DNA from: Microbacterium oleivorans NBRC 103075
GTDB lineage: Bacteria; Actinomycetota; Actinomycetes; Actinomycetales; Microbacteriaceae
Direction of reading: 5' to 3'
Length of the DNA stretch: 64,000 nucleotides
Assembly: GCF_001552475.1 (NCBI RefSeq)
Contig: NZ_BCRG01000011.1
Coordinates: forward strand, 1-64,000
Below, piece by piece: positions 9,243 through 14,458 of the stretch. The first letter of the stretch is position 1; every line of letters begins with the position of its first letter. The notes beneath the pieces are model-generated. The model was not told where the DNA came from. It made no database searches and worked only from the letters and a program-made list of their open reading frames with translations. The position numbers and the translations under genes were made by a program.

Positions 9243-9839
9243 TCAGGGGGCGAGTCGAACCCAGAGGGCGTCGGTCTGGGCGAGGGTGTCGGCCATGTCG
9301 CCGGCCGTGTCGATGACGACGTCGGCGATCGCCAGCCGTCGCTCGTCGTCCACCTGGGCGGACAACCGCGCGTCCGCATCTGCGGGGGTCATGCCACGCA
9401 GTGCGACCAGTCGCTCCCGGCGAAGGGCCGCCGGAGCATGAGCGACCACGACCAGCTCCCACGGGTCCTCCGCACGCGCTTCCAGCAGGAGCGGCACGTC
9501 GTAGACGACGACCGTCCCCGGATCCGCATCCAGGGCCGCACGGAAGCGGCGCGCCGATTCATCGCGGACGGCCGGGTGGACGATCGCGTTGAGGCGACCG
9601 ACGGCATCCGGATCACCGAAGACACGGGAGGCGAGTCCCGCCCGGTCGAGCTCGCCGGTCGAGGTCAGCACGTCCTGTCCGAACTCGGCGGCGATCGCGT
9701 CGAGCACCGGGGAGCCGGGCCGCTGGACTTCGCGCACGAGGCCGTCCGCGTCGACGATGACCGCGCCGTGCTCGGCGAGCCGCCGGGCGATGGTGGATTT
9801 CCCCGAGGCGATTCCGCCGGTCAGCGCGATGAGAGGCAT
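9243..9839 (-). CDS. coaE: Dephospho-CoA kinase
   Basis: CoaE phosphorylates the ribose 3'-hydroxyl of dephospho-CoA, the last step of coenzyme A synthesis, in the cytosol. The 198-residue protein opens [20 protein letters not shown] with a P-loop at residues 8-15, followed by [16 protein letters not shown] (the DAD substrate-contact motif), [20 protein letters not shown] and [20 protein letters not shown]. Length agrees with stand-alone CoaE. GAAGG precedes the ATG. It lies 59 nt upstream of uvrB and follows the GGDEF-like gene by 23 nt. Confidence 0.95.
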
Positions 9840-9862: not shown

Positions 9863-11050
9863 TCAGGTCAGGTGCGACCGCGCCTCATCGAGACCTCCGA
9901 AGAGAACGGATGCCTCGAGGCTCCGTGACGCGCGGACCGCCGCACCGCGTGCGGATTCCATGAGCAGATCGGTGTCGTATCCGACGGTCTCCGTGAGCCC
10001 GATCCCGATTCCGACCACGGGCAGGAGCCCCGTGGGGTTGCCCGCGAGGTCGTCGATGCACCCGCGGTAGATGGCCGCCCCCTGACGACGCGCGTCGGCA
10101 GCCGTGCTCGCGACGCCGCAGACCGCCAGCGTCGAGTCCCCGTCCTCGCCGACGAAGGCGGATGCCGGGGCGTGGCGCCGGACGGACCGGCGCCATTGCG
10201 CGGCGAGTTCGTCGGCGGCATCCGAGCCGAACGCCGCGGCCATCTCGTCGAGACCGTCGACGTGGACGATGATCACGCTGACGAGTTCGCGCCGCCATCC
10301 GGCGCGCTCCGCCATGGCCGCGAGCGCGTCACGGTAGGTCCGTCGGAGCAGGATGCCGTCGGCCGCGACCCCGTTCTCGCTGATCCACTCGTACCGCTGG
10401 GTCACACTCTTGGACGCTCGGAGAATCGACGTCACGACCACAGCGACCATGGTGAGCACGATGGTCGCGATGTTCGCGGAGATCGACCCGAACCAGGTGC
10501 GGAAGAACGTTCCCTCCGGTCCGTCGATGACGAAGGCACCGAGGCGTGCCGCGTAGTACACGGCGGCGGCGAACAGCACTCCGGTGAGCAGTCGCGCGTT
10601 GCCCATGCGACCCATCGGGCGGCGCATCGCCTCCCACCCACCGGCCAGGAAGAAGAAGACGATGTGTGCGGCCATGACCGCCCATCCGCCCCACTCCCCC
10701 TCGATCGGAACCCGGATGACCGCCGCCAGGAAGGTGGTCACCGCGAGGACCCCGGCGACGACGGACTGCCAGACGATCGGCCGGTCATTGAAGCGACGAT
10801 TGCCGAGCCACATGAAGGCCGGCGTCATAGCGAAAGCGGCGTTGCCGATCGCGATCGCGACCTCTTCGCCGATGCCCGCCGCCCAGGAGATGTACGCGAA
10901 GGTCGTGACCGTGCCGCAGAGGTAGGCGACGGCCCACAGGCGGCCGGCACCGGCATCCCGACGGCGCAGCGTCTCGATCACGAAGATGGCGGTCGCAACG
11001 AATGCGACGATCGCGGTCATCACCGTGACGGAGAAGAGGTCGAGCATCAT
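9863..11050 (-). CDS. Multispanning membrane protein with degenerate GGDEF domain
   Basis: The 395-residue protein has about seven predicted membrane helices in residues 1-215 (for example [20 protein letters not shown] and [18 protein letters not shown]), then a cytosolic domain resembling [25 protein letters not shown] aligns with the substrate strand of diguanylate cyclases. The catalytic GGDEF loop is replaced by [11 protein letters not shown] near residue 299, so cyclic-di-GMP synthesis is unlikely; it may bind a nucleotide, sense, or scaffold. Its ATG overlaps the histidine kinase stop by four bases (ATGA), implying coupled translation. No response regulator is adjacent. Function unknown. 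Confidence 0.75.
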
Positions 11051-12759
11051 GACACCGCCTCCGTGGCTTCCGGTTCGAGCGTCGCGTGGGCCGGAAGGCG
11101 GACGATGAACGTCGTGCCGGTCCCCTTCGTCGACGAGACGGTGATGTCCCCATCGTGTGCGCGAACGATCTCCCGACTGATCGCCAAGCCGAGCCCGGTC
11201 CCCGCAACACCGGATTCGGCGCGGAAGAACCGCTCGAACAGGCGCTCCTGATCCTCCGGTGACAGCCCGATCCCGGTGTCACGGACGAGGAACCACGAGA
11301 CGTCACCGTCCGTCGAACTGCTCAGTGTGATCGACCCACCGTCCCTGTTGAACTTGATGGCGTTACTCAGGAGGTTGTCGACCACCTGGCGGATGCGGCC
11401 CGGATCGATGAACGCCGGCGTGTCCGCCACATCGGTCGTGTCGACACGAATGGCTCGCTCGCGCGCGACAGGAGCAAGATCGGATGCCGCGGCCCGCACC
11501 ACCGCGCCGAGGTCGTGGAGGACCGGTGACACAGTCACCTCGGCCGACATCCTCGAGGCGGTCGAGGCAGCGAGGATCCCCGACACGATGCTGAGCAGTC
11601 GCTCGCTGTTGCGGTAGGCCACATCCACTTGGCGGTGCACGGTCTCGGGGACGTCTTCGGTGTCGAGGACCAGTTCGAGGTATCCGATGATCGAGGTCAA
11701 CGGGGTCCGCAGCTCGTGTGACACGGAGGCGACGAGACTGTCGCGAGCTTTCAGCGCGGTGCGCTCATCGGTGACGTCGCGGGCCACCAAGACCACGCCT
11801 GCGGGATCACCGTCGGTATCCCTCATCCGTCGAGCCGTCAGGCTCAGTGCCGCACGACGCGAGTCGGAGACCGCGTACCAGACCACCACATCGCTGAAGC
11901 TCTCTCCGCGCAGGATGCGCGCGAGCGGGCGATCTTCGGCGGAGAGAGGCGTTTCGCCGTCGGCGGCGAAGATCTGCTCAACTCCGTCGACCCTCCCGAA
12001 TCCCGGGATGCGCTGCTGGAACCGGCCGAGCGCGTCGTTGACGAAGGTGATCTCGCCGTCGGCGCCGACGCGCAGCACCCCGAAATCGACGGTGTCGAGA
12101 ACCTCGGTCAGGAGCTGCTCCTGGCGGCTCGCGTGGCGCAGCGCCGCGGTGAGGCGTTCCGCCTGCCGGTCGAGCAGGGCGCGCTGCGCGAGGAAGCGTC
12201 GCGTGGCGTTGTACGTGGAAGCCCCGATCGCGATGACGACCGCAGGAAGGACGATGACAGCCCACGTGAGCTGGAAGTCGGGCACGAACAGCAGGGCGAT
12301 CCAGTAAGCGCTGATCGACCCGACGCACGCCGCGATGAACCCCAGCCGCCCCATGGAAGACAGCCACATCGTCGGGAACGCCCAGAGCAGCCCGATCCCC
12401 GGCACGTCCGATGTCCGCATGAGACCGATGGCCACGATGTCGAGGAGGGGGATGATCGCAACCCACGAGGGGTGGAGCCGAGACCAGGGGACCGCCAGGC
12501 TCGCCACAGCCGCCACGACCACGATCACGGCGCCCGGGGCGAACTCCGGGGCGTCAGCCAACCACCCGCTTGGGATTCCCGAGAGGAAGATCGCGGCGAC
12601 GATACCGGTGAGGAGCAGCTGGTTGTTGGCTGCAACGCGGTCGCGGAGCTCCGTCAGAGGGAGCTGCCGTCGCGGCGCGTCGAAGAATCGATGCATCCGC
12701 GGTCCCGTCCGTCGGGACGGCGATCGATCTGCGGTCGATCTCTCGTGCTCTTGCGCCAC
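11047..12759 (-). CDS. PAS-domain membrane sensor histidine kinase
   Basis: A 570-residue sensor kinase. After a basic N-terminus it has about six membrane helices (residues ~45-195), a coiled linker, a PAS domain (~220-335, [20 protein letters not shown]), the HisKA helix with phosphoacceptor [14 protein letters not shown] (His ~347) and a HATPase domain with N box [13 protein letters not shown]1 DTGIGL and G2 GTGLGLAI. All kinase motifs look intact. No periplasmic sensor domain is evident, so the signal may be membrane-borne or bound by PAS. The GTG start is six bases after a TAACGT box. It overlaps the GGDEF-like gene; its partner regulator must be encoded elsewhere. Confidence 0.9.
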
Positions 12760-12859: not shown

Positions 12860-14311
12860 TCAGCGACCGGACAGCTTCTCACGAAGAGCAGCCAGTGCCT
12901 CGTCGTCAGCGAGGGTGCCCGCGCCGTTCGAGACCTCGGACGAGAAGGACGACGAGCCCGAGTCGGCCGGAGCGGCAGCCTCGGCCTCGAGGGCCTTGGC
13001 GACGGCAGCCTTGTGGGCTTCCCAGCGACCCTGAGCTGCGGCGTACTCGGCCTCCCAGGCAAGGCGGGCCTCGTCGAAGCCTTCCTTCCACTGGTTGGTC
13101 TCGGAGTCGAAGCCCTCGGGGTACTTGTACTCGCCGTTTTCGTCGTACTCGGTGACCATGCCGTACAGGGCCGGGTCGAACTCGGTGCCGTTGGGGTCGA
13201 CCGACTCGTTGGCCTGCTTCAGCGAGAGCGAGATGCGGCGACGCTCGAGGTCGATGTCGATGATCTTGACGAAGACCTCTTCACCGACGGAGACGACCTG
13301 CTCGGCGAGCTCGACGTGCTTGCCAGACAGCTCGGAGATGTGCACGAGGCCCTCGATGCCGTCTGCGACGCGGACGAACGCGCCGAACGGAACGAGCTTG
13401 GTGACCTTGCCCGGAGCAACCTGACCGATTGCGTGGGTGCGGGCGAAGACCTGCCACGGGTCCTCCTGCGTCGCCTTGAGCGACAGGGAGACGCGCTCGC
13501 GGTCGAGGTCGACCTCGAGGATCTCGACGGTGACCTCCTGGCCGACCTCGACGACCTCGGATGCGTGCTCGATGTGCTTCCACGAGAGCTCCGAGACGTG
13601 GACGAGACCGTCGACGCCACCGAGGTCGACGAACGCACCGAAGTTGACGATCGACGAGACGGTGCCCTTGCGGACCTGACCCTTGTGGAGGTTGTTGAGG
13701 AAGTTCGAGCGCGACTCGGACTGCGTCTGCTCGAGCAGTGCGCGGCGCGAGAGGACGACGTTGTTGCGGTTCTTGTCGAGCTCGAGGATCTTCGCCTCGA
13801 TCTCCTGGCCGAGGTACGGCGTCAGGTCACGAACACGGCGGAGCTCGATGAGCGACGCGGGCAGGAAGCCGCGAAGACCGATGTCGACGATGAGACCACC
13901 CTTGACGACCTCGATGACGGAGCCGGTGACAACACCGTCGTTCTCCTTGATCTTCTCGACGTCACCCCATGCACGCTCGTACTGTGCGCGCTTCTTGGAG
14001 AGGATCAGACGGCCTTCCTTGTCCTCCTTCTGGAGAACGAGGGCCTCGACCTGGTCGCCGACGTTGACGACCTCGTTGGGGTCGACGTCGTGCTTGATCG
14101 ACAGCTCGCGAGAGGGGATGACACCCTCGGTCTTGTAGCCGACGTCGAGGAGGACCTCGTCGCGATCGATCTTGACGACGGTGCCCTCGATGAGGTCTCC
14201 GTCGTTGAAGAACTTCAGGGTCAATTCGACCGCGGCCAGGAAGTCCTCAGCAGATCCGATGTCGTTGATGGCGACCTGCTTGGTGGCCGGGGCGGTCGTT
14301 GCGTTAGTCAT
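12860..14311 (-). CDS. rpsA: 30S ribosomal protein S1
   Basis: S1 binds mRNA on the small ribosomal subunit. The 483-residue product starts at ATG 14311 (MTNATTAPATKQVAINDIGS) and carries four S1 RNA-binding repeats beginning near DLIEGTVVKIDRDEVLLDVG, GVVTGSVIEVVKGGLIVDIG, GQVRKGTVSSIVNFGAFVDL and APGKVTKLVPFGAFVRVADG. Four repeats rather than the six of Escherichia coli S1 is normal for actinobacteria. The C-terminal ~110 residues are acidic and Ala-rich. Codon choice is strongly biased to C/G-ending codons, as expected for a highly expressed gene. It has a 147-base upstream region and a hairpin downstream. Confidence 0.97.
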   Translation of the reverse strand: MTNATTAPATKQVAINDIGSAEDFLAAVELTLKFFNDGDLIEGTVVKIDRDEVLLDVGYKTEGVIPSRELSIKHDVDPNEVVNVGDQVEALVLQKEDKEGRLILSKKRAQYERAWGDVEKIKENDGVVTGSVIEVVKGGLIVDIGLRGFLPASLIELRRVRDLTPYLGQEIEAKILELDKNRNNVVLSRRALLEQTQSESRSNFLNNLHKGQVRKGTVSSIVNFGAFVDLGGVDGLVHVSELSWKHIEHASEVVEVGQEVTVEILEVDLDRERVSLSLKATQEDPWQVFARTHAIGQVAPGKVTKLVPFGAFVRVADGIEGLVHISELSGKHVELAEQVVSVGEEVFVKIIDIDLERRRISLSLKQANESVDPNGTEFDPALYGMVTEYDENGEYKYPEGFDSETNQWKEGFDEARLAWEAEYAAAQGRWEAHKAAVAKALEAEAAAPADSGSSSFSSEVSNGAGTLADDEALAALREKLSGR

Positions 14312-14458
14312 GTAGGGGGTTGTCCTTGGATGGTGTTGTAATCGGGCCTCGGGACTCATCCACACGAGGACGTGCGGCAGCCGATCGAGGCAGAGTGGTT
14401 GATGTTGCGATGCCGCGCGGGCATGGCTCAAGAGCCACGCGTGCGACGCTCCAGAGTA

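Follow-up and report, generated by a model that had tools for sequence, protein, structure and literature searches.

A histidine kinase and a seven-helix pseudo-diguanylate-cyclase in Microbacterium oleivorans: parts of a putative three-part signalling system

In the first 64,000 nucleotides of contig NZ_BCRG01000011.1 of Microbacterium oleivorans NBRC 103075 (this whole stretch is referred to below as the window), a histidine kinase gene is joined to a gene for a membrane protein whose GGDEF-like domain appears unable to make cyclic-di-GMP. What might such a protein do next to a kinase? The original prediction, made from the letters of the window, regarded the pair as an insertion with no response regulator nearby, and proposed that the dead domain acts as a nucleotide receptor or as a modulator of the kinase. 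Here these proposals are weighed against comparisons of the pair with its relatives in the genus, the family Microbacteriaceae and the order Actinomycetales.

The gene pair between rpsA and coaE

Both genes lie on the minus strand, at the positions predicted. The kinase gene (11047..12759; assigned from its open reading frame, Pfam matches and a structural model) has a GTG start and encodes 570 amino acids. The second gene (9863..11050; assigned from its reading frame, model and structural matches) encodes a 395-residue membrane protein with seven helices and a C-terminal pseudo-GGDEF domain. The two share a four-base overlap, ATGA (11047..11050), in which the kinase gene stops and the pseudo-GGDEF gene starts. 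On the same strand, rpsA (12860..14431) and coaE (9243..9839) are the flanking genes, the latter separated from the pseudo-GGDEF gene by 23 bp and followed by uvrB. At least 33 of the 42 named relatives share this overlap, and the two genes are likely to be translationally coupled.

The expected make-up of the kinase (about six helices, PAS, HisKA and HATPase) was borne out. Pfam matches to HisKA (1.8e-17), HATPase_c (1.2e-29) and PAS_4 (3.4e-07) all lie above the cut-offs. In the AlphaFold model (pLDDT 81.3, pTM 0.41), helices at residues 35-64, 70-89, 97-115 (broken), 122-134, 138-157 and the start of 167-223 would make up six membrane helices; they precede a PAS domain (226-328), a DHp domain (330-405) and an ATPase domain (413-556). 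Residues H348, N462, N466, D494, G496, G498, G520, G522 and G524 are invariant in 41 aligned kinase sequences, and include those of the N and G boxes. The protein thus has the phospho-acceptor histidine and the two boxes by which a HisKA-type sensor kinase is recognized.

The 395-residue protein is matched in 63 of 99 genus genomes, in 60 of them (that of M. oleivorans included) by a full-length type and in three only weakly. Of the 59 other genus loci (L031-L089), 58 have the kinase gene immediately upstream, and the sole exception, L089, ends at a contig edge; the kinase of L083 is in frameshifted pieces, in an assembly that is 68% complete. The same arrangement is found in all 42 named loci, Microbacterium sp. 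11MF (90%) being the nearest named genome. In the family, at least 74 of 249 genomes and at least 33 of 85 genera match the protein at E ≤ 1e-8, and in the order at least 73 of 396 genomes do so, genus and family members included; these counts are lower bounds because scoring was limited to the 7 or 4 best candidates per genome, and some of the matches span part of the protein. Kinase-paired seven-helix loci also occur in three other families (nine order-level loci). The co-occurrence of the two proteins agrees with the coupling proposed at the outset.

The idea that the pair was inserted between rpsA and coaE holds only for an old event. Twenty pairless genus genomes were sampled out of 39: in six, rpsA and coaE are 101-128 bp apart, one has a gap of 2,975 bp, and 13 have no rpsA match in the stretch. 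In the kinase tree, the kinases of rpsA loci form one supported clade (34 labelled rows plus two loci for which neither flank was seen). This rules out a recent insertion and points to an old pair, passed down by descent and missing from some genomes.

Two further observations concern this locus. In L038, L039 and L040 the space between rpsA and coaE contains two tandem copies of the whole kinase/pseudo-GGDEF pair. A contig titled Stenotrophomonas maltophilia P13 (L173, JACEFY010000007.1) carries rpsA, kinase and pseudo-GGDEF genes of the Microbacterium type, about 60% identical to those of the window; the assembly is possibly mislabelled or contaminated.

The GGDEF-like domain and the outputs of its relatives

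The AlphaFold model of the 395-residue protein (pLDDT 82.8, pTM 0.54) has the seven long N-terminal helices predicted, a low-confidence linker (215-225) and a GGDEF-type fold (236-384). From the model and from relatives with other outputs, the seven-helix domain was placed at residues 1-214 (10409..11050, minus strand); the pseudo-GGDEF domain was placed at residues 228-385 (9896..10369, minus strand) from the model, structural comparison and purifying selection. Residues 224-385 of the model match the diguanylate cyclase 5llw_A with a Z score of 21.1 (rmsd 2.1 over 158 residues) and PleD structures with Z scores of 19-20, the structural matches spanning residues 221-390; Foldseek, too, ranks a GGDEF-domain protein first. 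The GGDEF-like fold is upheld by these scores, though the Pfam GGDEF profile (PF00990) gives 16.1 bits, below its cut-off of 23.8. No NCBIfam family scores above cut-off for the protein, and a weak Pfam match of the helices to Acyl_transf_3, also below cut-off, was set aside.

The degenerate signature VGEDGD (residues 300-305; 10136..10153, minus strand) reads as the original prediction had it. When the window protein is aligned with L131 and L132, intact relatives with the same seven-helix domain, the GGDEF columns fall on residues 304-308 and read GDSTL. With site roles assigned as in PleD-type enzymes, the first aspartate of DxD (a metal ligand) is replaced by H263, the asparagine and aspartate that follow DxD by A271 and A272, and the arginine and aspartate of the I-site by P295 and A298. 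Two alignments extend these readings: the window protein with 41 of the 42 named relatives (L175 left out), seven of whose 42 rows match PF00990 at E ≤ 0.01 (best 5e-12), and 62 genus rows (L089 left out as incomplete). Neither GG[DE]EF nor the RxxD I-site motif occurs in any row of either set. The I-site arginine column holds proline in 42 of 42 named-set and 59 of 62 genus rows, and in the aspartate column only A, S, T and G occur, in the two sets alike. At the first aspartate of DxD, arginine is found in 31 of 42 and 53 of 62 rows and aspartate in none; the asparagine column is without N in the named set, and the next aspartate is kept in 4 of 42 and 3 of 62 rows. These losses support the claim of a dead active site.

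That the domain might still be a cyclase, with an unusual active site, strikes us as extremely improbable. In its favour, position 265 on the DxD strand (D265 here) remains acidic (D or E) in 61 of the 62 genus rows, and position 280 is acidic in part of the rows; but the signature and the first DxD aspartate are lost, and the letters that replace them differ between species. It is very improbable, too, that the GGDEF-like part is a decaying remnant without a role. Signature and I-site are gone from all rows and most other site residues from most rows, and the low profile score would fit such decay. Set against this, the domain is under purifying selection: five comparisons gave dN/dS values of 0.038, 0.069, 0.108, 0.182 and 0.206, close to those of the kinase domains, the values being rough because about half of the synonymous sites differ. 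Moreover, residues such as F274, G275, P295 and G349 are invariant in 42 sequences of the domain, and the fold is predicted confidently.

The proposal of a nucleotide receptor would have the domain bind c-di-GMP or GTP and thereby tune the kinase, on the model of SgmT (see below), whose GGDEF domain binds c-di-GMP. Retention of the fold and of an acidic residue at position 265 is consistent with this role, as is the strong GGDEF match (≥70 bits) present in 18 of the 60 pair-bearing genus genomes; but the other 42 have none, and the I-site and DxD replacements listed above, together with the near-absence of the following asparagine and aspartate, speak against it. The M. oleivorans genome itself (99.99% complete) has no match to GGDEF, EAL or PilZ in searches that were positive in 8, 6 and 5, respectively, of 14 control genomes. 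In the genus as a whole, 42 of 99 genomes have a GGDEF match at E ≤ 0.001, partly by way of this pseudo-GGDEF family itself, and 26 have one of at least 70 bits. Because the I-site is absent and the genome has no GGDEF, EAL or PilZ match, we regard a receptor role, for c-di-GMP in particular, as improbable. Two loci of another genus argue on the other side: a gene with an intact GGDEF motif, and with an EAL domain recognized by eye, directly follows the pair in L146 (3534-5909) and L147 (7419-9806), so that in this genus a link to c-di-GMP is conceivable.

Relatives with an intact GGDEF motif, which would have counted against the original prediction, do exist, but they are distant and none of the 18 found has a kinase gene directly upstream. 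In L132 the seven-helix domain is followed by an intact GGDEF domain (Pfam, 131 bits) and in L123 by a SpoIIE-type phosphatase (Pfam, 120 bits); the other members of these two kinds were assigned by motif. A total of 135 seven-helix genes were classified, an upstream kinase being counted when its profile score exceeded 150 bits and the duplicate loci (L001-L030, L090, L111-L120) and the named set (L161-L208) being omitted. Of these genes, 101 are kinase-adjacent and all lack GG[DE]EF; besides the 18 intact genes there are seven SpoIIE fusions, without kinase, and nine dead genes without a kinase directly upstream. The nine comprise L083 (frameshift), L089 (contig edge), L094, L095 and L151 (extra copies at loci that also have the pair), L093 (kinase directly downstream) and L130, L133 and L134 (no kinase in the stretch fetched). 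A similar division appears at the order level, in 20 stretches from 19 of the at least 73 matching genomes: all nine loci with an adjacent kinase have dead domains, and the 11 loci without a kinase carry 16 genes, every one of them intact.

The split should not be read as 101 independent observations: in a tree of the seven-helix domain from 98 of the 135 sequences, two changes suffice for either label, which amounts to one or two evolutionary events whose outcome has been retained since. The tree is unrooted, and a switch from intact to dead is its natural reading. Intact members are probably under-sampled, since the sampling profile was built from kinase-linked dead proteins.

The SpoIIE-type fusions come from seven family genomes (L121-L127; for example L123:5980-7359). 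L228 (5992-9811) contains three consecutive genes for seven-helix proteins with intact GGDEF and no kinase, and L225, L226 and L227 have two in a row.

The same census bears on the alternative of a pseudo-GGDEF protein that senses separately and has its own protein-binding output, being co-expressed with the kinase in one operon but without action on it. The nine dead genes without a directly upstream kinase, above all the three with none in the stretch, are what this alternative would lead one to expect, and the joining of the seven-helix domain to outputs as different as the SpoIIE phosphatase also speaks for it. The constancy of kinase adjacency in genus and named loci and its recurrence in three other families, the frequent four-base overlap and the duplications that preserve the pair all weigh against it, and we consider a separate sensor rather unlikely.

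Response regulators and glycan genes

No response regulator gene was found in the window by tblastn with five relatives of the neighbouring regulator as queries, and to this extent the original prediction was right. As a family trait the statement fails: a convergent response regulator gene, on the opposite strand and with its end no more than about 100 bp from the pseudo-GGDEF stop, is present at 49 of 59 genus loci, which rules out an orphan kinase as a general property. An adjacent regulator in relatives is a finding that the original prediction had itself listed as counting against it. In most relatives the gene occupies the space between the pseudo-GGDEF gene and coaE. Among the 49 local regulators, 28 consist of a receiver and a DNA-binding domain and 21 of a receiver only (for example L055, L057, L059, L065 and L081). 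The ten genus loci without a regulator gene (L031-L040) are those with the highest-ranking matches to the window protein; the gene's absence from the window is a local loss in this clade. Regulator genes are present at 24 of the 42 named loci and absent from 18.

The best match to the lost regulator in the M. oleivorans genome is at L091 on contig C9, with 56% identity in the receiver and 54% in the DNA-binding part; all other matches in the genome are at 34-43%. The L091 regulator gene is located between a GT2 glycosyltransferase gene, whose nearest NCBIfam model is PgaC/IcaA at a score far below cut-off, and a GH6 gene, the sole GH6 match in the genome. Further genes of the cluster encode a sugar transferase, a DUF4012 protein and a second pair of kinase and pseudo-GGDEF protein, divergent from that of the window. 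In the response regulator tree, which has several weak forks and long rows and whose rows were all picked by one profile, one supported group unites the GT2-linked regulators with ten from other loci and four adjacent ones, and most of the local regulators fall outside it.

Window-type pairs in other genera of the family adjoin a small gene (LP1) and GT2, response regulator and GH6 genes. In 23 such loci (L128, L129 and L140-L160, chosen by the analyst among the family matches), the stretch fetched contains the kinase in all 23, a response regulator in 16, GT2 in 13 and GH6 in 10; five have a regulator without GT2, and five have neither. Two of the 23 pairs (L141, L142) lie between rpsA and coaE. 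GT2 and GH6 genes were not found in the window; with no regulator or glycan gene there, and with a C9 cluster that has a pair of its own, the window's pair may serve something else.

Variation was also seen within the glycan clusters. The DUF4012 gene (L091:11509-13383) adjoins the paralogous pair, and 8 of the 20 loci L091-L110 have a gene like it. L093, L094 and L095 have an extra divergent seven-helix pseudo-GGDEF gene between the kinase and GT2 genes of the cluster.

A proposed three-part system

A role of the pseudo-GGDEF protein as a modulator of the kinase is plausible on comparative grounds. The reading towards which we lean, by a modest degree, is that of a three-part system, with a pseudo-cyclase as modulator of a kinase that controls a surface glycan. 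Its parts would be the sensor kinase, the seven-helix pseudo-diguanylate-cyclase and an OmpR-type response regulator. The pseudo-cyclase would share ancestry with the seven-helix proteins that have intact GGDEF domains, having kept their fold and membrane part and lost the residues for catalysis and c-di-GMP binding. It would sense through its seven helices and act on the kinase by protein contact, as a co-sensor or as a gain control. The kinase would then pass phosphate to the OmpR-type regulator, and the phosphorylated regulator would control surface beta-glycan genes, as the gene neighbourhoods suggest. In the window's clade, where the local regulator gene is gone, the kinase would most likely signal to the L091 regulator on C9; this transfer is a guess from similarity (56% and 54%, against 34-43% for the rest of the genome).

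Support for this three-part system comes from the kinase upstream at nearly every genus locus and every named one, the joint duplications in L038-L040, the convergent regulator at 49 of 59 loci, the dN/dS values of 0.04-0.21 and the split between 101 kinase-adjacent dead genes and 18 intact genes without an upstream kinase. The glycan link is supported by the GT2, GH6 and regulator genes at the loci of other genera and by the L091 cluster. The system as a whole is made less secure by the absence of GT2 from 10 of those 23 loci, five of them without a regulator as well, by the 21 local regulators without a DNA-binding domain, and by the strong GGDEF matches in 18 of 60 pair-bearing genomes and the GGDEF-EAL gene after the pair in L146 and L147.

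No account of a kinase-linked pseudo-GGDEF unit was found in the open-licence literature, judged by titles and abstract openings. A membrane protein partnered with a histidine kinase has a counterpart in SpdC, an Abi-domain protein unrelated to diguanylate cyclases, which reportedly controls the activity of the kinase WalK. The unit is probably best described, from its sequence features, as a variant of the two-component system with a pseudo-diguanylate-cyclase as putative membrane partner. It may work somewhat like SgmT-DigR of Myxococcus xanthus, a kinase and a DNA-binding response regulator, both called orphans, that act on the extracellular matrix; according to excerpts of that report, SgmT too joins a kinase to a GGDEF domain with a degenerate A-site (PMC3509222). 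The SgmT domain lies inside the kinase, has an intact I-site and binds c-di-GMP, by the same excerpts (PMC3509222), whereas that of the window is on a separate seven-helix protein, in a genome without GGDEF, EAL or PilZ matches; having lost the RxxD I-site that marks degenerate-GGDEF receptors of the SgmT/PopA type, it is not of that kind. GdpS of staphylococci, the only GGDEF protein of its genome, resembles the window protein in that, as excerpts of its description have it, its effect on the exopolysaccharide genes (ica) does not depend on the synthesis of c-di-GMP (PMC9714401). It differs in having a conserved GGDEF domain and an effect that reportedly does not require its protein-coding function, and these excerpts mention no partner kinase (PMC9714401). 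The cslA-glxA-cslZ glycan locus of Streptomyces combines genes for a glycan synthase and a GH6 glucanase, as found together at L091 and L144; no kinase, response regulator or pseudo-GGDEF protein is mentioned as a part of it in the excerpts of that paper (PMC9040799).

The interest of the unit lies in its breadth, in the strict division between intact and dead members and in the lack of matches to c-di-GMP genes (GGDEF, EAL, PilZ) in the genome that harbours it. We put forward tentatively, as a possibility we hold somewhat doubtful, that in the Actinomycetales a whole class of seven-helix diguanylate cyclases turned, once or twice, into pseudoenzyme partners of sensor kinases, and that in genomes from which c-di-GMP disappeared entirely the resulting unit of kinase, pseudo-cyclase and regulator assumed the control over beta-glycan synthesis that elsewhere belongs to c-di-GMP. 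With one seven-helix domain followed by an intact GGDEF domain, a SpoIIE phosphatase or a dead GGDEF domain, the family forms a natural progression from an enzyme of second-messenger synthesis to a partner of a kinase, which makes the role of degenerate GGDEF domains without c-di-GMP directly testable in Microbacterium. For a signalling unit of the Microbacteriaceae and three other families, surface glycan would be the first functional lead.
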